Assembly: GCA_028386065.3 (NCBI GenBank)
Contig: JAKUCV010004507.1
Coordinates: 1-64,000, forward strand
Length of the DNA stretch: 64,000 nucleotides
Source of the DNA: Turnera subulata
Taxonomy: Eukaryota > Streptophyta > Magnoliopsida > Malpighiales > Passifloraceae
Reading direction: 5' to 3'
Shown: piece by piece, positions 10,752 to 58,672 of the stretch
Layout of the letters: the number at the start of each line of letters is the position of its first letter
How positions within the stretch are numbered: position 1 is the stretch's first letter
Program-made: the position numbers and the translations under genes
The notes under the pieces: model-generated
Database searches by the model: none
The model's input: the letters and a program-made list of their open reading frames with translations, nothing else
Told to the model about the DNA's origin: nothing

Positions 10752-11223
10752 ATGATGAAGGATTGCTTGGAGGAGATGCGCAGGTCTTGGGGTGAATTGC
10801 TGCTTAAAGGAGCTACTGGTCAAGACGAGTATAGAGGCATTGAAGAGGATAATGCTCTGGCAAAAGAGGTTTTAATGATTTATCTAATTTGCTTCAGCAG
10901 AGAAGACAACAGAACCAGCAGTACAGAAACCTTTGCTTTAACAGGAAGAAATCAGCAAGAAAAGGAAAGAACCCTTGACAAGTGAAAGTGAGGAAGGTGG
11001 CAAGAAGAGTAGAGAATCGGCAGAAAAGTGCTGATCCCAGGACTTCAAAGAACGAACCGCATAAGGCTGTAAATTTGGTGCTACGTACAAAAGATTCCAT
11101 CATAGAGAAAGCCAAGGGTGTCAAGTCAAGGATACGGCGGCTGCTGCTGCTGCTGCAAAGAATACTGTCAAGGGATTTAACATGGAGCTTGCCAATCGAA
11201 GAGAGGAAATCAAGAGGTATATG

Positions 11224-11846
11224 TGTTGGTGAGTGGGTTCCTCCTTTTTGTGGGGCCCACTACTAGTATTAATGGAGCACTAATTGTTATTAGTGGAGCA
11301 GTTAGTGAAGCACTAAGTGTTTTGCAGAATAGTCCTTGAAATTCTTGATTTCTGCAAATTGGTCCCTGACGAGATGCCTATAAATAGGCTTCTCATTTGC
11401 TCTTCAAATTATCCCATTCATTCACAACAAGAGTGAATAAGAGAAGAGAGTGAGAGATAGAGAGAGTGTTGGAAGGAGGGAAGAAATTTAGGAGAAAATA
11501 TTCCTTAATATTTTCTCAAATCCCCTCTTAAATTAGGAAGTGACAAAATAATGAGAAAAAATATCTTAGGGGTATTTTTGACAAATACTTGGGAAACACC
11601 TTGTGAGATACTATTTTGGATAGAACTCTAGGTTGATTATACCCCTAAAATTTAGGGAAGTCTCTCTTGTAAGCCTACTATTTTATAGTGGAAATTTTTT
11701 CGGTGGGATCGGGATTGTGGACGTAGCCCGGTATTTGGGTGAACCACGTTAAATACTGTGTGTCATTTATTTCTTTTTGTCCTCCACTTGTTTATTTCCT
11801 TGTGAGGTGATATTATTTCCGCAAGATAGTGCCACCGGGCCCAACA
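11224..11846 (+). repeat. Copia-1 5' LTR
   Basis: Begins TGTTGG and ends CCAACA, the usual inverted ends. It contains a TATA-like 'cctataaataggc' near 11378-11390, the probable promoter. A degenerate primer site with 'agtagcggagcag' follows. Confidence 0.93.
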
Positions 11847-12114
11847 ATTAGTAGCGGAGCAGAAGGTTTGTGCTTTGTCAAGTGCAAGGTTGTGAATTAA
11901 TGCACTGTGCAAGTGAATCCTGTTTAGGAGACTGGGTTTTAAGTGAACCTTTGTTCCTCCAGTCTTTCCTGGGGATTTATCTTGGAATGATAATTCTGTC
12001 TTAGGAGATCGGCTAGGCCAACTTTCCTAGGAATTATCGAATCAGTTCAATTCACTACTTGTACGGGCACTATTCACCGCAAGGAGTTTCCCAGATCGAG
12101 GAGCTAGTCAGTCT

Positions 12115-13740
12115 TTGATCCAGATGGAGGCGAGGATAAACAAGATGATTACTCTAGACGGCACTAATTACCACTTATGGAGAAACAAGATGAAGGATCT
12201 CCTATTCGTGACGAAGATGCATTTACCGGTGTTCAGTACGGTAAAACCTGAAGAAAAGTCAGACGAGGAGTGGGAGTTTGAACACATCCAAGTCTGCGGT
12301 TATATATGGCAATTTGTTGAGAATAATGTTTACAACCACGTTTCTGACATTGAGCATGCTAGAACACTGTGGGAAAAGCTCAAAGAATTATATGCCTCAA
12401 AGACAGGGAACAACAAGCTATTTTACTTGACGAAGCTGATGCAAGTAAAATACCAAGAAGGCAGAATGGTTGCAGATCACCTTAATGAGATGCAAGGGAT
12501 CGTGGACCAACTTTCTAGCATGGGCATAAAATTCGACGATGAGGTGCTTGCTCTTATGGTCTTGGCGACACTCCCAGATTCATGGGAAACCTTGAAGGTT
12601 TCAATCACAAACTCTGCACCTAACGGTGTCGTGAGTATGGCAACCGTCAAAAGTGGCATTCTGAATGAAGAGATGAGACGAAGAACACAAGGCTCGTCTT
12701 CTTCACAGTCAGAGGTCTTGGCTACAGTGACGAGGGGGAGAAGTCAGAACAAGGGTCAAAGCAACCGAGACAAGAGCAGAGGAAAGTCCAACAAATTTGC
12801 CAATGTTGAGTGCCATCACTGCAAGAAGAAGGGCCACATCAAGAAATTCTGCCGACTCTTCAAGAAAGAACAGAAGAAGAATAAAGGCAAAGATGTGAAG
12901 AAAGAAGAAAGCAGTGATGATGAAGCGAATTCTCTTGGAGAATTCAATGTTGTCTGTGATGATGATATCATCAACCTTACTATCCAAGAGTCAAGCTGGG
13001 TAGTTGATAGTGGTGCTACTATTCATGCTACACCACGGAGAGAACTCTTCTCTTCTTACACTCCTGGTAATTTTGGGACTGTAAGAATGGGAAATGATAA
13101 ATTCTCAATGGTCGTCGGCAAAGGAGATGTTTGCCTAGAGACCATGAACGGGATGAAGCTGCTTTTGAAGGATGTCAGGCATATTCCAGATATGCGTCTG
13201 AATCTGATCTCTGTTGATAAGCTCGACGAGGAAGGTTTTTGTAATACCTTCTACAATGGTCAATGGAAGCTCACCAAAGGCTCGTTAGTGGTGGCACGAG
13301 GTACAAAGGTGTCAAAGTTGTACGTGACCCAGGCAAAGGTTCCTCAGCATGATGTAAATGTTGTGGAGAACGACAGCCAAGTTCAGCTGTGGCACAGACG
13401 CCTTGGACACATGGGTGAGAAGTCAATGGTGAAGCTGGTCAAGAAGAATGTTCTGTCAGGATTGAATCAAATCCAGCTGAAGAAGTGCAGTCACTGTCTA
13501 GCTGGTAAGCAAAATAGAGTTTCTTTCAAGAGCTTTCCTCCTTCCAGAAAGAAAGATGTGCTAGAACTGGTACACTCAGATCTGTGTGGGCCTTTTAACA
13601 AGTCCCTTGGTGGTGCCCAGTATTTTGTGACCTTCATTGATGATCACTCACGGAAAACCTGGGCTTACACATTGAAGTCTAAAGATCAAGTGTTGTCAGT
13701 CTTCAAGCAGTTTCTAACTATGGTGGAAAGAGAGACATGA
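12115..13740 (+). pseudogene. Copia-1 GAG, protease and N-terminal integrase
   Basis: An open stretch of 541 codons. GAG (Ubn/Retrotran_gag type, starting LDGTNYHLW) fills the first part. The zinc knuckle CHHCKKKGHIKKFC lies near 12811-12852. The aspartic protease shows VVDSGATIHAT near 12997. The GAG-pre-integrase motif HRRLGHMGEKSM and the first part of the integrase core (VHSDLCGPF, FIDDHSRKTW) follow. The frame ends at a TGA (13738-13740) in the middle of the integrase core, so the integrase is truncated. The catalytic motif TDNGGEY lies just beyond the stop. Confidence 0.9.
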
Positions 13741-16139
13741 AAGAAGCTGAAGTGCATCCGGACAGATAATGGTGGTGAGTACACAGGTCCATTTGATGTT
13801 TACTGCAAAGAGCATGGTATTCGGCATCAGTTTACTCCACCAAAACTCCACAGTTGAATGGCTTAGCTGAGAGGATGAACAAAACTTTGATTGGGAGAAC
13901 CAGATGCTTACTCTCTCACTCGAAGTTACCACAAGTCTTTTGGGGTAAAGCACTACTTACAGCGGCTTATGTGCTGAACCATTCACCTTGTGTTCCTCTT
14001 CAGTATGAAGCTCCAGAGAAGGTGTGGTCAGGAAGGGACATATCCTATGATCACTTACGAGTATTTGGGTGAAAAGCTCATGTCCACATTCCAAAGGATG
14101 AAAGAAGCAAACTAGATGCCAAGACAAGACAGTGTGTATTCATCGGTTATGGCCAAGACATGTTTGGCTATAGGCTTTATGATCCAGTAGAGAAGAAGCT
14201 TATCAGGAGTCGAGATGTTGTCTTTATGGAGGATCAGACCATAGAAGACATTGACAAAGCAGAGAAGTCTAGTAATGATCTAGAGGAGTTTCAGTTACCT
14301 CCAATAAAGATACCGAGACAAGTTGGAGATGATGTTCAGGATATTCATCCTGAAATTCCAGATGATCCTGCTGAAGATGAGCCAGCAGATGCTATTGAAG
14401 ATGATGGCAATGATGATGTAGCTAATGATGATGCAGCTAATGATGATTCAGCTAGTGATGACCCACCTCCACCATCAAGTAATTCTCCTTATCGCACAAG
14501 GTCCGGAAGAGCCGTGTAACCCTCTACTAGGTACTCTCCAAACGAGTATTCATTACTCACTGACGGGGGAGAACCAAAAAGCTATGATGAAGCTATTAAT
14601 GATGAGCATAAGGAGAAGTGGATTCAAGCCATGCAAGAAGTCTACTTTAGGAACGTACTCTTGTTCTGTAAACTCGACCACTTCGACGGATTTCCGTTCT
14701 CTCGAAACTTTTTGTTCACCCACAAGTCCTAGTTCGTACTTCTCGTGTCAGGTGAAGGTTCTAAGTTTCGTTCTAATCAACAGTTTCCAAAGTCAGTTTC
14801 TTTTCCCTAACTGAAACTACTTTAGAAGAGTGGTGTGGTAAAGATGACCTCAATCCGCACGGTGCTGGGATTAGCTGTAAGTCTCAACCTGGAGGTTGAA
14901 CAGATGGATGTTAAAACAGCCTTCCTACATGGTGATTTGGAAGAAGAGATATACATGGAGCAGCCAGAGGGTTTCCAGCGGAAAGGAAAAGAGAATTACG
15001 TTTGTAGATTGAGGAAGAGCCTTTACGGCTTAAAACAAGCCCCAAGACAGTGGTACAAGAAGTTTGAGTTAGTGATGTGGCAACAGGGATACAAGAAGAC
15101 TACTTCAGACCACTGTGTATTCGTCTAGAAATTTTCTGACGATAACTTCATCATCCTATCGCTCTATGTGAATGATATGCTGATTGTTGGCCGAAATGTT
15201 TCCAGAATCAACAGCTTGAAAGCACAGCTAAGCAAGTTTTTCGCCATGAAGGACTTGGGGCCAGCAAAACAAATTCTCGGGATGAGAATTGTTCGAGATC
15301 GACAAGCCAAGAAGATATGGCTGTCCCAAGAGAAGTACATAGAGAAGGTACTTCAACGGTTCAACATGGATAAAGCTAAAGCAGTCAACTGTCCTCTTGC
15401 TAACTACTTTAGACTAAGTCCTGAGCAGAGTCTATCTACGGATGAGGAGAAGAAAGAGATGGAGCGGATTCCATATGCCTCAGCAGTGGGAAGCTTGATG
15501 TATGCCATGGTATGTACCCGACCAGACATTGCTCATGCAGTCAGAGTGGTTAGCCGATACCTTTCGAATCCTGGTAAAGAGCATTGGAATGTTGTCAAGT
15601 GGATTCTCAGGTATCTTCGAGGAACTTCCAAAATGTGTCTATGTTTTGGAGAAGACAAGCCAGTGCTGGTTGGATACACTAATGCAGATATGGCTGGTGA
15701 TGTTAGTTCCAGAAAATCTACATTAGGATACCTGATTAATTTTTCAGGGGGAGCTGTGTCATGGCAATCAAGGTTACAAAAGTGTGTTGCTCTGTCAACT
15801 ACAGAAGCCGAGTTCATTGCAGCAACGGAAGCATGTAAGGAGTTATTGTGGATGAAGAAGTTCTTAACTGAACTTGGTTTTTCGCAAGACAGTTATCAAC
15901 TATTTTGTGACAGTCAGAGTGCTATCCATCTTGCGAAGAATGCCTCTTTTCATTCCAGATCGAAACACATAGATGTGAGATACAACTGGATTAGGGATGT
16001 GCTAGAGAAGAAGCAATTACAACTCGAGAAGATCCATACAGAAGAGAATGGATCTGACATGCTGACAAAGACACTTCCAAGAGGGAAGTTTGAATACTGC
16101 CGTGAAGCTGCCGGACTGGTGGATCCCCCCAACATGTAG
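13741..16139 (+). pseudogene. Copia-1 C-terminal integrase, reverse transcriptase and RNase H, broken
   Basis: After the TGA at 13738 the integrase continues with TDNGGEY. A single-base loss near 13842-13850 then shifts the frame. In the new frame the integrase end is clear (GLAERMNKTL), with further stops at 14070-14072 (TGA) and 14517-14519 (TAA). Block 14641-14834 is unreadable as written (separate entry). RT resumes at 14835 with QMDVKTAFLHGDLEEEIYM and SLYGLKQAPRQW, meets a TAG at 15126-15128, then shows the catalytic box as YVND (15165-15176) instead of YVDD. RNase H follows (STTEAEFIAA, SKHIDVRYNWIR) and the frame ends at 16139. The element cannot act on its own. Confidence 0.88.
14641..14834. 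other. 194-base block complemented in place inside the Copia-1 RT
   Basis: As written, no frame on either strand resembles a Copia protein. Replacing each base by its Watson-Crick partner without reversing the order yields an open frame in phase with both flanks (codon boundaries at 14640 and 14835). It contains the standard Copia RT N-terminal features, including a tryptophan motif (NKWVF) and KARLVVKGFSQ. The normal reading stops in the middle of a GAG codon at 14640/14641 and resumes with GTG GTA AAG at 14835. The edges are good to about one base. A true inversion would read as a reverse complement, which this does not. Confidence 0.92.
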
Positions 16140-16155: not shown

Positions 16156-16778
16156 TATTGGTGAGTGGGTTCCTCCTCATTGTGGGGCCCACCGCTAGCA
16201 TTAATGGAGCACTAATTGCTATTAGTGGAGCAGTTAGTGAAGCACTAAGTGTTTTACAGATTAGTCCTTGAAGTTCTTAGCTTCTGCAAATTGGTCCCTG
16301 ACGAGATGCCTATAAATAGGCTTCTCATTTGCTCTTCAAATCATCTCATTCATTCACAACAAGAGTGAATAAGAGAAGAGAGTGAGAGATAGAGAGAGTG
16401 TTGGAAGGAGGGAAGAAATTTAGGAGAAAATATTCCTTAATATTTTCTCAAATCCCCTCTTAAATTAGGGAGTGACAAAATAGTGAGAAAAAATACCTTA
16501 GGGGTATTTTTGACAAACACTTGGGAAACACCTTGTGAGACACTATTTTGGATAGAACTCTAGGTTGATTATACCCTTAAAATTTAGGGAAGTCTCTCTT
16601 GTAAGCCTACTATTTTATAGTGGAAGTTTTTCCGGTGGGATCGGGATTGTGGACGTAGCCCGGTATTTAGGTGAACCACGTTAAATACTGTGTGTCATTT
16701 ATCTCTTTTTGTCCTCCACTTATTTATTTCCTTATGAGTTGATATTATTTCCGCGAGATAGTGTCATCGGGCCCAACA
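16156..16778 (+). repeat. Copia-1 3' LTR
   Basis: The same length as the 5' LTR (623 bp), ending CCAACA. The first dinucleotide is TA instead of TG, a change that would harm integration. About 30 substitutions separate it from the 5' copy, mostly transitions. Confidence 0.93.
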
Positions 16779-16876
16779 ATATGTGGGTGTGGCAGTCCTA
16801 GTGATTGTTGCACTGAGGGCCTATATTGCTTACAGCTATCGACCATCCGGAAGTACAGGCGCCAACGACCAGTGAT

Positions 16877-25270: not shown

Positions 25271-26351
25271 TTAAGGATCTTGAATGCATTCCAAGTTAAT
25301 GGACCAATGCCAAAAGAAGGATGCATGTTTACAACAGTGCGGATTGGGGAGCATGAGATTAATGCTTTGATTGATACTGGTGCTACTCACAACTTTCTTG
25401 CAGGTGATGAAGCAAAGAAGCTGGGCATCACAATTACCAAGGAGTTGAGCAAAATTAAGGTAGTCAATACAACTGCACAACCTATCGTTAGTGTGGCACG
25501 AGGTGTAGAGATTAACTTGGGGGATTAGCGAGGCAAGATCTTAAGGATCTTGAATGCAGTCCAAGTTAATGGACCCAATGCCAAAGGAAGGACGCATGTT
25601 TACAACAGTGCGGATTGTGGAGCATGAGATTAATGCTTTGATTGATACTGGTGCTACTCACAACTTTCTTGCAGATGAAGAAGCAAAGAAGCTGGGCATC
25701 ACAATTACCAAGGAGTTGAGCAAAATGAAGGCAGTCAATACAACTGCACAACCTATCCTTGGTGTGGCACGAGGTGTAGAGATTAACTTGGGGGATTGGC
25801 GAGGCAAGATCTTAAGGATCTTGAATGCAGTCCAAGTTAATGGACCAATGCCAAAGGAAGGACGCATGTTTACAACAGTGCGGATTGGGGAGCATGAGAT
25901 TAATGCTTTGATTGATGCTGGTGTTACTCATAACTTTCTTGCAGGTGATGAAGCAAAGAAGCTGGGCATCAAAATTACCGAAGAGTTGAGCAAAATGAAG
26001 GCATTCAATACAACTGTACAACCTATCATTGGTGTGGCACGAGGTGTAGAGATTAACTTGGGGGATTGGGGAGGCAAGATCTTAAGGATCTTGAATGCAG
26101 TCCAAGTTAATGGACCAATGCCAAAGGAAGGACGCATGTTTACAACAGTGCAGATTGGGGAGCATGAGATTAATGCTTTGATTGATGCTGGTGCTACTCA
26201 TAACTTTCTTGCAGGTGATGAAGCAAAGAAGCTGGGCATCAAAATTACCGAGGAGCTGAGCAAAATGAAGGCAGTCAATACAACTGCACAAGCTATCCTT
26301 GGTGTGGCACGAGGTGTAGAGATTCACTTGGGGGATTGGCGAGGCAAGATC
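25271..26351 (+). repeat. Four tandem copies of a 270-bp retropepsin-domain unit
   Basis: Units start at 25271, 25541, 25812 and 26082, each opening ttaaggatcttgaatgca. Each encodes about 90 residues including GRMFTTVRIGEHEINALID and the protease active-site loop. The loops read DTGAT, DTGAT, DAGVT and DAGAT in order, so units 3 and 4 have lost the threonine. Unit 1 ends with TAG in place of a tryptophan codon. Unit 2 has one extra C near 25574 that changes frame. Units 2-4 are open as one frame, joined by ILRILNAVQVNGPMPKEG. Normal elements have one such domain. Confidence 0.92.
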
Positions 26352-34703: not shown

Positions 34704-34916
34704 TGTTAGAGATAAGACATCTATCAGGTTGTTAGGCTAATCCTTGTGAATAAGATAACAGTGCATAGCTGTAGTTTATCTATGTAGCTTCTATCCTAGT
34801 ACTAGACTTATCATAACAGAATTGTATTCCTATGGTAACACTATAACAGTTAGTATAATACAGTGATGAGGGCTACCTGTTCTGTGTGCCTTTCACTAAA
34901 CTCTTGTGTTTCCATA
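34704..34916 (+). repeat. Copia-2 5' LTR
   Basis: Starts TGTTAGAG and ends TTTCCATA, if the exact 5-bp target duplication is used to set the edge. The end is therefore TA rather than CA. It is 213 bases long. Confidence 0.9.
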
Positions 34917-34942
34917 TGGTAGCGGAGCCATACTAGTCTTAG

Positions 34943-37900
34943 ATGGCAACCGATCCAAAGGCTGTTGAGAGTCCAGCTTCTTCAAAAACTAGTTCTTCCA
35001 AATCAACCACAGTTACAGTTCCAAAAATGGCATCCCTAGATCCAGCCACTCACCCTTTGTCTCAAGTCCATCATCATATCTCAATCAAGCTGACCGAAAC
35101 AAACTACGTGTTTTGGCGTGCTCAGATGGAACCATTCTTGGTGGGGCAAGGCGTGATGGGATACATCAATGGCTCGATTTCTTGTCCTCCTTCCATGGTA
35201 CCATCTGAAGACGCTGGTGGAGAGCTACAACCGAATCCACTCTACCAGCAGTGGATCCAACAAGATAGCTTGATCTTGAGTGCGATTCTTTCGTCGGTGA
35301 CTCTAGATGTGTTTTCAACAGTTGTGAACAAAAAGACATCACGTGAGGCTTGGGAGGCGCTGGAAGAGACCCTTGCGTCTCCAAATAACACACGAGTCAT
35401 GGCCATTCGGATGGCGTTGCAGAGGTTGGAGCAGCAGTCTGAAGAGCCGGTGTCACGGTTTCTGCAACGTGCTAAACGCCTTGCAGATGAAATGGCAGCA
35501 TCTGGTATGCCATTAACAATTAATGACTTTAATGTTTATGTTTTTCGTGGTTTAAAGGCAGAGTTCAAGCCACTTACAGCATCTCTGCAAACTCGCCTCG
35601 AACCAGTCAAGTTCTCTGAATTGCAGAGTCTTTTAATGAGTCACGAATTTATCTACGATGACCCTGTTAAAGCCCTGAATATTGAGTCATCGAATTCTTC
35701 TGCTGCTGCACCCGCGGCCCTGATGACAACACCTACTCCTACAGCACATCTGGCACAGCGTGGTTCTCTTCCTCCTCAGGGGCAGAATAATCGCGGTGGT
35801 CGTGGAGGTAATCGTGGCCGCGGGGGGAAGAACTGGGGCCGTGGTCGAGGCAATTACAACTATAATTATGATAATCGTTCTTCCTGGAATTCAAACTGGA
35901 ATGGAGATGCCCCACGTCCTCGGTGTCAGATTTGTGGAAAGTTCGGGCACACTGCCCTGAAGTGCTATCAAAGGAATACTGGTGCGCCACCTGCTGCCCA
36001 TCTTGCCACTAGTACACCTCCAACACCGACCTCTTATGCCTCTTCTATGTGGTATCCAGATACGGGAGCGAGCCACCATGCTACACCGGATTATCATCAG
36101 TTCCAGCAATATGATGATTATCAGGGACCTGATTCGTTGCAAGTAGGTAATGGTGCTCAGTTATCAATTGCGGGTATTGGCTCTCACTCTCTGTCTACAT
36201 CCTCTAAACCCTTGCATTTATTCAACATTCTTCATGTTCCAACCTTAACTAAATCACTTCTCTCTGTCCAAAAATTCACACAAGACAATAATGTGTTCAT
36301 TGAATTTCACTCTGATTATTTTTGTGTCAAGGACAAGGATACCAAGACAACATTGTTCACAGGCCCGAGCATTAATGGCTTGTATCAAATGCCCTCACTC
36401 TCTGATCATGGATCGTTTAGAGCCTTCCTTGCTGTTCGGGTGGCACCATTGGTTTGGCACAGGCGGTTAGGGCACCCTCATTCTCGTGTTCAACAACAAC
36501 TTTTGTCCCAGTAGTCTCTTCCTGTTTTTCGTGAGTCTAGTGTGCTCTCTTGTCCTCACTGCCCCTTAGGCAAGCAGAAAAGGCAGTCTTTGCCTCTTAG
36601 TACTAATCGAGTCACATGTCCTTTAGAGTTAATTTATAGTGATGTTTGGGGGCCATCCCCAACATCGAGTAGTGATGGTCATTTTTATTACGTTGTGTTT
36701 TTGGATGCTTTCAGCAAATTTATTTGGTTCTTTCCAATAACTCATAAGTCAGATGTGTTTTCTTGTTTTCTTTTGTTTCAAAAGCGAGTTGAGAAGCAAT
36801 TTTCTCTTAAGATTAAAGCAGTTCAAACTGACTGGGGTGGAGAATACAGGAAGTTGAATAAGTTTTTCATAAATCAGGGTATCATTCATCGTGTGATGTG
36901 TCCCCATACTCATGAACAACAAGGTGCAATTGAAAGAAGACACCGGCATATTGTTGAAACCGGTTTAACGTTAATGGCTACAGCTAATATACCACGTAAA
37001 TTTTGGCACTTTGCTTTTGAAACCTCAGTTTATTTAATAAACCGGTTACCTACTCCTGTTCTACAGAATTTATCTCCTTATCAAGTTTTGTTTAAGCAGA
37101 CCCCAGATTACTCTTTTCTCAAGGTTTTTGGTTGTTTGTGTTTTCCACTGCTTCGCCCTTATAAAAAGCATAAAATTGACTATAGAACAACTCCTTGTGT
37201 TTTTCTTGGGTACAGTTCTTCCCACTTGGGATATCGTTGCTATGATTTTGATAAAAAGAAGTTTTATATTGCCCGGCATGTCACATTCCATGAGAATGAG
37301 TTCCCTTTTAATAACAAACAGATTTCCTCTCAATCATCAATTCCCACGTCGACCTGGACTACTGTGCCTTTAACCGTGTTTTTCCCATCCTTGCAGCAAG
37401 GTAAGTCTTCTAATCTAATCCCATCTCCTACTCCAAATCCTTGTCCACCACCTCGTATCAGCTCTAGTCCAACACAGAGTCCTACTTCAACACAATCCTC
37501 CCCTCAACACACACATCAGTTACCCGAGACGCCTAGTCAACCTACTATATCTTTCCCCACTCATACATCCACACCAACATCACCACGCCCTAGTGTCGAG
37601 CCTGCACCAGATTCTTCCTCCTCTCCATCGTCCTCTTCGACTTCTCCAACTGTCACACCTCCTGCGTCCCCTCCAAAACACCATTCCATGGTACTACGTC
37701 CAAATCGTCGTCCTCCTTCTAAATACTTGCCCTCCAATCACCATGTTGAGACTGTTACCAAACCCGAACTTGATATTGAGCCTACTACTTTCTCTGCTGC
37801 TAACAAGTTTCAGGTTTGGAAGCAAGTAATGCGCGAGGAGATGGAGGCCTTGTGCAACACTAAAACATGGAATTTGGTCCCTTATACCAAAGGGATGAAT

Positions 37901-39307
37901 CTTGTTGGCTGTCGTTGGGTATACCGCATCAAGCGAAAGGCAGATGGTAGCATTGATCGGTATAAGGCGAGGTTAGTGGCAAAGGGTTATCATCAATAAG
38001 CAGGTGTTGATTATGGAGAAACTTTTAGCCCGATAGTTAAACCGGCAACGATCAGGGTGGTCCTCTCTTTGGCATTGACTTGGAATTGGTCCATTAAACA
38101 ACTTGATGTGTGCAATGCGTTTCTGAATGGGTTCTTGAAGGAGCAAGTGTACATGGGGCAACCTCCTGGTTTTGTTGATCCTACAAAACCTCATCATGTC
38201 TGTCACCTTCAAAAATCTTTGTATGGTCTCAAGCAGGCTCCACGTGCTTGGTATTCACGGTTAAGTGAGTTTCTCTTACAGCAGGGTTTTCAGGTCTCTT
38301 ATTCTGAACCTTCTCTACTCATTTACAATCAGCACAATATTCGGGCTTATCTCCTTGTATATGTGGACGACATAATTCTCACAGCAAGCAACACAGTCTT
38401 TTTGAAGGATTTACTCCATCGGTTGAGCACCACTTTTGCTTTAAGGGATCTTGGCGAGCCTTCATACTTTCTTGGCTTGGAGGTTCATCGAACTGCCACT
38501 GGTGTAGTGTTAACACAAGAGAAATATGTTCGCGATTTGTTAAAGCGTGCTGGAATGGAGTCTTGCAAACCAGTTACCACGCCAGCTTCTACTTCACAGG
38601 TTTTGCGGGCTGAACAAGGAGAGTTTCTACCCGACCCCTCTGTCTATCGACACCTAGTCGGATCATTGCAGTATCTTGCGATTACACGTCCTGATATAGC
38701 CTATTCTGTAAGTAAAGTCAGTCGCTTTATGCATAAGCCTACACAGGAGCATCTTGTAGCAGTCAAGCGTATTTTGCGCTACTTAAAGCACAGCATTCAT
38801 CTTGGTTTATGTTTTCGCCGGCTCACAGATAATGCACTACAAGTCTTCACAGATGCCGATTGGGCTGGTAGTTTAGATGATCGCCGTTCGACAGCCGGAT
38901 TCTTTATCGTGTATGGTGGAAACTTAATTGCATGGGCCTCTAGGAAGAAGCGGACGGTGGCGAGGTCATCTACTGAAGCCGAATATAAAGCCATGGCTGA
39001 TGGGGTAGCAGAACTCATGTGGATCAAGACACTGTTGCGAGAACTTGGTGCTCCTGCTAGTAAACCAGTGTTGTGGTGTGATAATTTGGGGGCTACATTC
39101 TTGAGTCGCAACCCTATCTTGAATGCCCGGACCAAGCATGTCGAAATCGACTATCATTTTGTGAGAGAACAGGTTACACAAGGACATCTTCAAGTGCAGT
39201 TTATCAAAAGTGCAGACCAACTAGCTGATGTGCTCACTAAGCCGTTACCAACAGCTCGTTTTCAACAGCTTCAGGCCAAACTCAACCTTGGTTCTAAACC
39301 GGGTTGA
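34943..39307 (+). pseudogene. Copia-2 gag-pol, one frame with two stop codons
   Basis: A single frame of 1455 codons runs from 34943 to 39307, broken only by TAG at 36512-36514 and TAA at 37997-37999. Order: GAG with an RGG-like glycine/arginine stretch (35790-35850), zinc knuckle CQICGKFGHTALKC (about 35924-35965), protease (WYPDTGASHHAT), GAG-pre-integrase (HRRLGHPHSR), integrase (SDVWGPSP, TDWGGEY), a proline/serine-rich spacer, RT with intact YVDD (38360-38371), and RNase H (STEAEYKAMADG, KHVEIDYHFVREQ). The first stop falls between protease and integrase, the second inside the RT fingers. No frameshift was seen. Without readthrough it cannot make full Pol. Confidence 0.93.
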
Positions 39308-39320
39308 GTTTGAGGGGGGA

Positions 39321-39533
39321 TGTTAGAGATAAGACATCTATCAGGTTGTTAGGCTAATCCTTGTGAATAAGATAACAGTGCATAGCTGTAGTTTATCTAT
39401 GTAGCTTCTATCCTAGTACTAGACTTATCATAACAGAATTGTATTCCTATTATAACACTACAACAGTTAGTATAATACAGTGACGAGGGCTACCTGTTCT
39501 GTGTGCCTTTCACTAAACTCTTGTGTTTCCATA
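39321..39533 (+). repeat. Copia-2 3' LTR
   Basis: 213 bases, the same start and end as the 5' LTR, with four substitutions (two adjacent near 39449, two single). Confidence 0.92.
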
Positions 39534-50528: not shown

Positions 50529-50820
50529 GGTAAAAAAGTTTTTCTTGTCCCTTCACTTTTTTGTTTTCACAATTGTTGTCCCTCTTCCTTTTTTTTCACT
50601 CAACATGTCCCTGAACTTTCATTTTACCGGGCCACCATGTCCTTTTGACCCCCAGCAGCCGGTTGGAAGCTGTGGCGCTGACACGTGTCCGTGGGGCCCA
50701 CTCCATCTGATTCTATTTTTCTTTTTTTCTTTTCTTTCTTATTTTCTATTTTTCAAAAATCCTTTTTATGTTTTATTATATTAGTTTTTGTAATAAATTG
50801 AAGAGAAAAAAGAATTTATT
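50529..50820 (+). repeat. Left terminal inverted repeat of the Pack-MULE
   Basis: About 292 bases. It contains a 'cggttggaagctgtggcgc' stretch and 'gacacgtgtccg', a palindromic G-box-like ACGTG core, then a T-rich part. Confidence 0.9.
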
Positions 50821-50964
50821 GTTTTATTTTTATTTACCAAAAACAAATGACTCAAAGTTTTAAAAAAATAAAATGAAGTGCTTTTTTCTTAAGTTTTATT
50901 CACTCTAAAAGATTTTTTAAGAACAAAATTATATTAAAGAAAAAAATATTAAATAAATTACTCT

Positions 50965-51390
50965 TTTGAGGGTGAAGTTCTGGAAAACGGGAGCCGCGTG
51001 AGTGAAAGAGAAGCCACAGTCCACGACCAGGCTGCACTGGGCTTTGGAGACCAGCCCGTAAGGGCGGCGGCTGGCCTCGTAGAGGTGGGCCAGCTTGGGG
51101 GGATCGGCGACGAAGAGGGACTTGAAGCCGAAGTCCTCGAAGACGAGCTCGTCGGTGGCGCGTTGGATGGAGGGGAGGGCGAAGAGGGGCTCGGTGAGGA
51201 GGAGGGAGGAGGAGCAAGGGTTGGTCTTGAGGAGGGAGGAGAAGAGGTGGTGCCAGATGTCGCGCTGGAGGTCCGGGTTGATGAGGTAGCCGCGGTCGAT
51301 GGGGCGGCGGACGGCGGCGGAGGTGAGGTCTTCGTCCGGGGGAGGGGTGGGGGAGGGGTGGAGGAATTTCTTGGAGGAGAGGGGGCGGTA
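50965..51390 (-). pseudogene. ARP6: Captured exon fragment of actin-related protein 6 (ARP6)
   Basis: A frame of 142 codons is open across the whole captured part but has no start codon. It reads YRPLSSKKFLHPSP, LTSAAVRRPIDRGYLINPDL, LLLTEPLFALPSIQRATDEL, VFEDFGFKSLF and CSLVVDCGFSFTHAAPVFQ. This matches the N-terminal third of plant ARP6, a subunit of the SWR1 complex that deposits H2A.Z. The first residues of the protein and everything past FTLK are missing. GC content is far above the surroundings, with C or G at nearly all third positions. It could make antisense or small RNA against the parent gene. Whether the parent is in this genome cannot be seen here. Confidence 0.85.
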
Positions 51391-51395
51391 GAAAT

Positions 51396-51687
51396 AATAA
51401 ATTCTTTTTTCTCTTCAATTTATTACAAAAATTAATATAATAAAACATAAAAAGGATTTTTGAAAAATAGAAAATAAGAAAGAAAAGAAAAAAAGAAAAA
51501 TAGAATCAGATGGAGTGGGCCCCACGGACACGTGTCAGCGCCACAGCTTCCAACCGGCTGCTGGGGGTCAAAAGGACATGGTGGCCCGGTAAAATGAAAG
51601 TTCAGGGACATGTTGAGTGAAAAAAAAGGAAGAGAGACAACAATTGTGAAAACAAAAAAGTGAAGGGACAAGAAAAACTTTTTTACC
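51396..51687 (-). repeat. Right terminal inverted repeat of the Pack-MULE
   Basis: Mirror of 50529-50820. Only isolated differences are seen. Confidence 0.9.
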
Positions 51688-55300: not shown

Positions 55301-56162
55301 GCGACGGGTGGCGGCGGCGGCTTGTCTAGTTGCAGGCAGAGGAGGTGCAGGCGGCATCGATCCGTGGCCGAGGAGGAAGGAGGCGACGTTGGTGGTTCGA
55401 GGGCGGTGGTGGCGGATTTGGGAAAACAAAGGAGGAGGGGAGGACGGGGAGGAGATAACGGCTGTGGTGGTGAGGGAGATGTGAGGGAGAGGACGAATCC
55501 AGAGGGGGAGGAAGAGGGAAGGAGGGAAGATGATTGCAGGAGAAAGAAAATGGAAGGCAGAGAAATAATTGAGAGGGAAGGAAAAAGACAGAAAAAAATA
55601 ATGGAAAGAAGGAAGTGGGGGCTAGGGCGGCGGCTGAAGGAGAAAGAGAGGGGAAAAGAAAGAAAAGAAAGAAAAGGGAAGGAAAAGAAAAGGAGAAGAA
55701 AGAAGGAAAAGAAAGAAAGAAAGAAGAGAAGTGGGGCCCGCGCGGCTAGGAAAAACCGGGAGAGAGGAGAAGAAACATAACCGGAAAGAGGAAGAGGAAG
55801 GAAAGAGAAGAAAGAAGAGTGGCTCGGGGCAAGCCTCATTTGACCGGTCCGGATTCTCGCGTCGGAATCTCGTAGACGCAGGGGTACTCCCGTCTTTCCG
55901 ACAAATCCCGTCCTGAGTCCAAAAATACAACTTGGGCTCGGAAAATCCGATTAACTCTCCTGAACGTCGTCCAAGTCTCGGAACTGGAAATCGAGGCTCG
56001 GTTAGTTAGGAAGATACTCCCGAGTGCGGGAAAACTCTTGGTTTCGAAAAACGACTCCCGTTTTACCGTGAATTAATTACCCAAGATTAATTTAACAGTA
56101 AATCACGGTAAGACGACTTCTACAGTCCCGGTAAAAATCCAAATTTTACCCGAGCTGTTACA
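52391..56162. mobile_element. Very long solo LTR (3.8 kb) or LARD-like unit
   Basis: Begins TGAAGCGCCCCGACCC and ends GAGCTGTTACA, i.e. TG...CA, with the 5-bp target duplication GGTTG on both sides (52386-52390 and 56163-56167). There is no internal pair of direct repeats and no protein domain, so it behaves as one LTR left after recombination. Starts of this kind are common in long-LTR plant Gypsy families. The second half carries a purine-rich, GC-rich block (54930-55900) with long but low-complexity open frames. Confidence 0.7.
53116..53248. repeat. 28-bp tandem repeat, nearly five units
   Basis: aatccggg recurs at 53116, 53144, 53172, 53200 and 53228, each followed by gatcaacatccc. Early and late units differ (ccatatctca versus aatatcacaa). 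It lies within the long LTR. Confidence 0.93.
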
Positions 56163-57708: not shown

Positions 57709-58108
57709 GAAAATCAACAAGAAGGAAACTAGGAAATTGAGAAAGATAATTTTTATTGATAGAAAGGGTGTTTAAAGTGAATAGAGAAGGGAGGACTCTC
57801 AGCCCCTAGCTTTTTTTACAACGCTCCCTACCTTAGGGTTTTAAGGCCTCTCTTAGTGTTTTTATACATTAGTCCTCACGTCCCACTCATCCTAAGGTCA
57901 CTATTTGCGAAAATCAACAAGAAGGAAACTAGGAAATTGAGAAAGATAATTTTTATTGATAGAAAGGGTGTTTAAAGTGAATAGAGAAGGGAGGACTCTC
58001 AGCCCCTAGCTTTTTTTACAACGCTCCCTACCTTAGGGTTTTAAGGCCTCTCTTAGTGTTTTTATACATTAGTCCTCACGTCCCACTCATCCTAAGGTCA
58101 CTATTTGC
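57709..58108. repeat. Perfect 200-bp tandem duplication in the Tat 3' LTR
   Basis: 57709-57908 and 57909-58108 are identical in my base-by-base comparison. Each unit contains, on the minus strand, the TATA-like TGTATAAAAACAC (near 57860-57875 and 58060-58075), so the probable LTR core promoter is doubled. Confidence 0.92.
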
Positions 58109-58672
58109 GTCCATCTCCCCACATCGTGTGGCTCTCCTTTATTCCTCTTCAGCAAGACACCTCTTGTACAGCTGTCCTCCATATTTCAGCTACTCAGGAA
58201 TATTCCACACGGACCCTATTTGCTGACGTTCCCCTATGACGTTTGGGGTTCCGTGAGATGGACCTTCCCCCTTCCTTCTTCTGCCGGGTCCGGGTCTCCT
58301 CATTGCATTGGGCCTTCTCCATGATGGGCCCGTCCATACCAAGAGCCCCTCAAGTGGAGGGTTAAGGGTTCCGTCTTTTCCGCCTCTTCAAATTTTGAAT
58401 TTCCCCTTAATCCCTTCACTTGCTGGTCTCCAAGGTTTCCTTCAAATCCGACGGTTCCACTTTCCCCATCTCTCTGTCGTTTCACTATGTCCTTTTTGGG
58501 GTCCACGCCTTCGGTTCCTATTGGCAGTTTTGGACAGTTCCGGGTAGGTTATTCCTTCTTATCTCTTTCTTTCTTCTCTTTTATACTTATTTTTCTCCTC
58601 TTCTTTTTTCCACCTCCCTCTCGTTTTTCTTTCTTATCTTCTTCACCGTTTCTCTTCCTTTCGTCGTTTACA

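Follow-up and report, generated by a model that had tools for sequence, protein, structure and literature searches.

The window, i.e., the whole 64,000-nucleotide stretch of the Turnera subulata contig JAKUCV010004507.1 that was analyzed, contains a decayed plant-type Copia retrotransposon. At 14641-14834 within this element, 193 or 194 bases of the reverse transcriptase (RT) coding sequence are replaced by their in-place complement, with the order of the bases unreversed. The following features were annotated for the element:

5′ LTR, 11224..11846, forward strand: 623 bases, TG...CA, with the target site duplication ATATG at 11219-11223.
ORF from gag to the start of the integrase, 12031..13740, forward strand: ends with TGA at 13738-13740, followed by a frame change.
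Integrase end and SH3-like region, 13797..14519, forward strand: two ORFs with stops at 14070-14072 and 14517-14519.
Unaltered upstream coding sequence, 14520..14640, forward strand: adjoins the block and is in phase with its complemented reading.
Complemented block, 14641..14834, forward strand: in-place complement of Copia RT coding sequence; the printed readings are without Pfam match.
Unaltered downstream RT, 14835..15128, forward strand: in phase, RVT_2 profile positions 56-154, in-frame stop at 15126-15128.
RT end and RNase H region, unaltered, 15129..16139, forward strand: RVT_2 profile positions 159-242.
3′ LTR, 16156..16778, forward strand: 623 bases, starts with TA and not TG, with the target site duplication ATATG at 16779-16783.

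The paired LTRs, the ATATG on both sides and the gag and pol regions in Copia order, with the integrase before the RT, assign the element to the Copia LTR retrotransposons. The Pfam families Retrotran_gag_2, Pol_BBD and gag_pre-integrs were found above the cut-off in 12031..13740, and SH3_retrovirus in 13797..14519 (E 2.5e-21). The integrase core was matched below the cut-off only, by rve in the first and by rve_3 in the second of these regions. For the RT end and RNase H region, at least 6203 matches were obtained among 7990 candidates scored, and the 120 matches listed are 62-83% identical, apart from one with 49%. The two LTRs differ at 31 of 623 positions, or at 30 of 623 if the frame is shifted by two bases, 27 of these being transitions. 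Outside the block, the decay of the element comprises four stops and one frame change, and apart from the block it looks like an ordinary old copy. A second Copia element is located at 34704-39533, with LTRs of 213 bases that are 98% identical; its RT is readable as printed and contains one in-frame stop.

The block and 400 bases of flank were translated in four versions, namely as printed, as complement, as reverse complement and reversed. The complement is the sole version that is open throughout the block and in phase with both flanks. Its frame runs across both block edges with zero bases gained or lost. As printed, the block has stops in the frame of the flanks and the RT frame of the element is lost, and its reverse complement, which a DNA inversion would leave, contains stops and encodes no RT. 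The complemented peptide fits the Pfam family RVT_2 (PF07727) at profile positions 1-57 with an E value of 4.9e-17 and 62.8 bits, at a curated cut-off of 31.6. The profile is carried on by the unaltered downstream ORF at positions 56-154 (E 1e-29) and then by the next ORF at positions 159-242, so that the complemented reading occupies the positions expected for a Copia RT of the type that is called TNT 1-94-like in plants. What sets the locus apart from a Copia RT is that these 193-194 bases are printed as their in-place complement and thus encode no RT. The initial annotation, which had been made from the letters of the window, had described this parallel complement in phase with both flanks, the motif KARLVVKGFSQ in the complemented frame and the exclusion of an inversion. 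All three are borne out: the first by the translation, by Pfam RVT_2 and by the scoring of 144 translations described below, the second by the presence of the motif in the stop-free complemented frame, and the third by the stops in the reverse complement.

The comparison of the complemented block with known proteins, which had been proposed along with that annotation, revealed the similarity to Copia RTs as well. In a large protein set, 500 matches among 560 candidates were found for the complemented peptide, and every one of the 120 matches listed carries PF07727; the protein match comprises 66 residues with an E value of 2.6e-30. Some of the relatives are named "retrovirus-related Pol polyprotein from transposon TNT 1-94." Among the matches listed, P0002 has the highest identity, 92% over 92% of the query, and the named hosts include Acer saccharum, with 83% identity to the complemented peptide. 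Just downstream of the block, P0002 agrees with the element in 42 of 44 residues, as counted by eye. Because P0002 is very close downstream of the block too, the block seems to be original sequence of the element and not a patch from another family. The identity of the complemented block minus that of the downstream part is -5.5 points, and the range is -15.9 to -1.7 in the 25 relatives for which 60 or more residues of the block and 90 or more downstream residues could be aligned, so that no extra divergence was found. With a looser cut of 26 relatives, the mean identity is 70.1% in the block and 76.0% downstream. In public databases, two of the plant-type Copia proteins, P0006 and P0177, are assigned to Corynebacterium sp. 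MC-13 and MC-10, and these entries are probably plant contamination of the Corynebacterium assemblies.

The printed readings of the block do not belong to RVT_2. Its longest printed open frame has neither a Pfam match nor a candidate homolog in the large protein set. For 14641-14811 as printed, no Pfam family was found, and the longer ORF gave weak hits only (E 0.09 and 0.19). At a threshold of E 1, Pfam also gave no match for six further stop-free printed pieces of at least 20 residues, taken from both strands. The earlier statement that neither strand gives a Copia protein could thus be confirmed. A separate gene in the printed block was considered and is ruled out by the missing Pfam matches and by the longest frame without homolog. 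Close DNA relatives were found neither in viral_contigs nor in genome_contigs; the latter contain two distant loci with 31-32% identity (L001, L002). A PDB search resulted in one match, which is non-significant.

The letter map was examined by scoring 144 translations (24 letter maps, two orders and three frames) with a profile built from 142 relatives spanning the block. For this, 240 proteins had been fetched, of which 159 have a match to the block peptide. The in-place complement reaches 130.6 bits and is ranked first among the 144 translations; the runner-up scores 19.7 and belongs to a map that shares letters with the complement. The profile leans towards the complemented peptide, since 113 of its 142 members were found with this peptide and 29 via the unaltered downstream ORF; the Pfam RVT_2 match is independent of it. 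Inversion, plain reversal and every other letter map were rejected by the reading of the frames and by these scores.

A scan of the whole window with the same profile in all 144 readings resulted in two matches: the block in its complemented form (119.4 bits) and 37829-38065 of the second Copia element in the printed reading (73.7 bits). In a tblastn search of the 240 proteins under the 24 maps, full-complement similarity is confined to 14637-14900, i.e., the block and an alignment overrun. Letter maps with two unchanged letters, or with letters in common with the complement, produced many trivial in-place matches, which were set aside. The comparison of the window with its own complement revealed no second block and one short match, a mirror-like self-match of 33 bases at 629-661. 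By the probes used, the block is unique in the window: no second complemented block is present among its repeats or RT-like regions, which are what these probes see, so that they would miss a complemented block located in unique sequence.

Both edges of the block are sharp. The codon at 14640-14642 is Glu in 125 of the 129 relatives with a residue at this position, which requires 14640 to be unaltered and 14641 to be complemented; a later start would lead to Val and an earlier one to Gln, each of which occurs in 1 of 129. Judged by these codons, the left edge is 14641. At the other end, the codon at 14832-14834 is Pro in 118 of 141 relatives, and 111 of 141 have Val at the codon that follows; complementing one base past 14834 would give Leu, which is found in 1 of 141. 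Since CCA and CCT both encode Pro, the right edge is 14833 or 14834, which makes the block 193 or 194 bases long. Of the exact coordinates given initially, 14641-14834, the left one stands and the right one is uncertain by one base. A direct repeat of 9 bases, CTACTTTAG, is located inside both edges at 14642-14650 and 14817-14825, at offsets of 1 and 9 bases. It was given no weight, because a shared 9-mer was also found in 125 of 9106 pairs of 40-base stretches sampled from the window with the same spacing.

The dinucleotide content was used to ask which reading of the block had evolved. The printed block contains nine CpG but not a single GpC, and in the complemented reading the two numbers are exchanged. 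Between the LTRs and outside the block, the observed/expected ratio of the element is 0.44 for CpG and 0.89 for GpC. Windows of 194 bases with no GpC and at least nine CpG were found in 22 of 63806 cases, all of which overlap the block, whereas at least nine CpG alone occur in 489 of 6381 windows and, inside the element, in 2 of 373. The CpG excess alone is not unusual, since elsewhere (near 55845-55939) windows of 194 bases have up to 14 more CpG than GpC; it is the combination of no GpC with at least nine CpG that is unusual. A Poisson comparison with the element's own rates gives about 567 to 1 for evolution in the complement reading, a figure to be read in the light of codon use, which also shapes these counts. 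CHG counts (6 printed, 5 complemented) do not separate the two readings. Because of the contrast between CpG and GpC, the block has probably not been resident for long in the printed form, and long residence in the DNA as printed appears unlikely from its composition.

The time since insertion was considered by means of the LTRs. Eight CpG sites are shared by both LTRs and two are present in one LTR only, which corresponds to a survival of 0.89 per copy, and the probability that nine CpGs would show no decay if the change had followed the insertion is approximately 0.35. Of the GpC sites, 12 are shared and 6 are present in one LTR only, so that changes were more frequent here than at CpG. Owing to the high survival of CpG and the lower stability of GpC in the LTRs, a real change since the insertion stays compatible with the data.

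The feature is most likely not part of the genome. In recombination, inversion and template switching, the strands that are moved are antiparallel and the products are reverse complements; as DNA strands pair antiparallel, no known recombination yields such a block. Since no established DNA process would yield it, a data-handling error or a deliberate edit is most likely, and we consider it very probable that the block arose when sequence text was processed by computer, and not in a cell. In one form of this explanation, the sequence text would have been edited deliberately. In the other, a reverse-complementation would have been left half-done, i.e., a minus-strand read or contig patch would have been reversed and the complement step skipped. 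Either form would lead to exactly the printed text at this locus with its length unchanged, and minus-strand text that is only reversed agrees with the printed block letter for letter. The deliberate edit and the software fault are together regarded as the most likely origin, and neither is preferred. We know of no named tool with an in-place complement defect. Phrase searches of the literature showed no report of complement faults among the records listed, and such reports may still exist. The initial annotation had named assembly, file handling or a deliberate edit as likely causes, and the same view is reached here, with the reversed-only minus-strand text reproducing the block. Its further statement that no known recombination route makes such a block stands; by computer it is easily made, as text that is only reversed gives the block.

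With an artifact of colour-space decoding as in SOLiD-type sequencing, all bases between two colour errors would likewise appear as the exact in-place complement. A sequence and its in-place complement have the same two-base colour code, and for this reason one wrong colour, or a wrongly chosen first base of a contig, would be followed by the parallel complement until a second matching error occurs. In the two-bit colour code, the printed and the complemented version of a 400-base stretch differ at two colours only (14640 and 14834), and each of the two differences has the value that swaps A/T and G/C. According to a review, colour-space reads are most accurately translated by aligning them to a reference (PMC3472021). 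Such a fault, however, predicts sibling blocks under the A/C+G/T and the A/G+C/T maps, and neither of these two other colour maps gave a match in the self-comparison, in tblastn or in the profile scan, which cover the repeats and RT-like regions of the window. In addition, a window of 64 kb without N and with several tandem arrays seems unlike a short-read colour-space assembly. We consider a colour-space origin very improbable.

A real molecular event would require "swinger" polymerization or parallel strand copying, perhaps during the reverse transcription of the element, and subsequent fixation. The A↔T+C↔G rule with abrupt switches has been claimed for DNA records of several laboratories (PMC4942731), and parallel-direction DNA synthesis in PCR was claimed in a paper of 2014 (PMC4304224). 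Moreover, the block sits in an element that is reverse-transcribed, and the CpG check based on the LTRs is compatible with a change since the insertion. On the other side, the contrast between CpG and GpC opposes long residence as printed, and to our knowledge there is no established chemistry by which long DNA would be made on a parallel template with a sharp edge at either end. As far as the account given in PMC4942731 goes, only its own author calls those records swinger-transformed, and there as well as in PMC7027195 sequencing artifacts are mentioned as possible, though both argue against them. We thus regard an event in the cell as very improbable. This applies equally to its specific form, in which a polymerase, plausibly the element's own RT, would have copied approximately 194 bases in parallel or with full exchange of A/T and G/C and the product would have been fixed in a plant chromosome.

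Ordinary biology misread, i.e., an inversion, an unrelated insertion or random decay, can be practically dismissed even for an element decayed elsewhere by four stops and one frame change, as the frame is restored neither by the reverse complement nor by plain reversal, whose scores are both far lower than that of the in-place complement, the printed readings lack a Pfam match and the longest one a homolog, and random decay cannot give a 66-residue match of E 2.6e-30 under one exact letter map.

The initial annotation had called such a block, if confirmed in reads, without known precedent. This does not hold, since DNA of this kind is already in print: Seligmann's "swinger" DNA is defined by the exchange A↔T+C↔G, at that time the sole rule reported for DNA according to PMC4942731. 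By its letters the block conforms to this definition, i.e., a continuous exchanged stretch that is contiguous with regular sequence. In the mitogenome record of Kamimuria wangi, a swinger 16S rRNA gene is embedded in ordinary sequence (PMC4942731). As far as that case is described in PMC4942731, it shares with the block the letter rule, the ordinary surroundings and the sharp switches; it differs in that a mitochondrial rRNA gene is concerned there and part of a coding block in a retrotransposon here. In our view, the Kamimuria wangi 16S and the Copia block both fit a data-handling fault.

If the block is the product of a computer operation, as we prefer to read it, it represents a class of fault that is missed by ordinary searches. 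As such a block has no match on either strand, it seems to be unique sequence or an orphan stretch. Scanning for in-place complements against repeat or protein libraries would be a cheap means of detection in any assembly and could be used to re-examine published "swinger" DNA. Should the block prove to be true in reads, antiparallel templating would no longer be the sole way of copying long DNA, and the swinger claim would become testable at one locus.

Further repeats were noted in the window. At 25271-26351, there are four tandem copies of a 270-base unit with 95% matches, whose consensus unit, inspected by eye, seemingly contains the aspartic-protease-like motif LIDTGATH. At 57709-58109, a unit of 200 bases is perfectly duplicated in tandem (100% matches), which is either very recent or an assembly duplication. 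The fold-back at 50529-51687 consists of 296-base arms that are 99% complementary and a spacer of 567 bases, with GAATATTGGA on both outer sides, and is possibly a mobile element with its target duplication.
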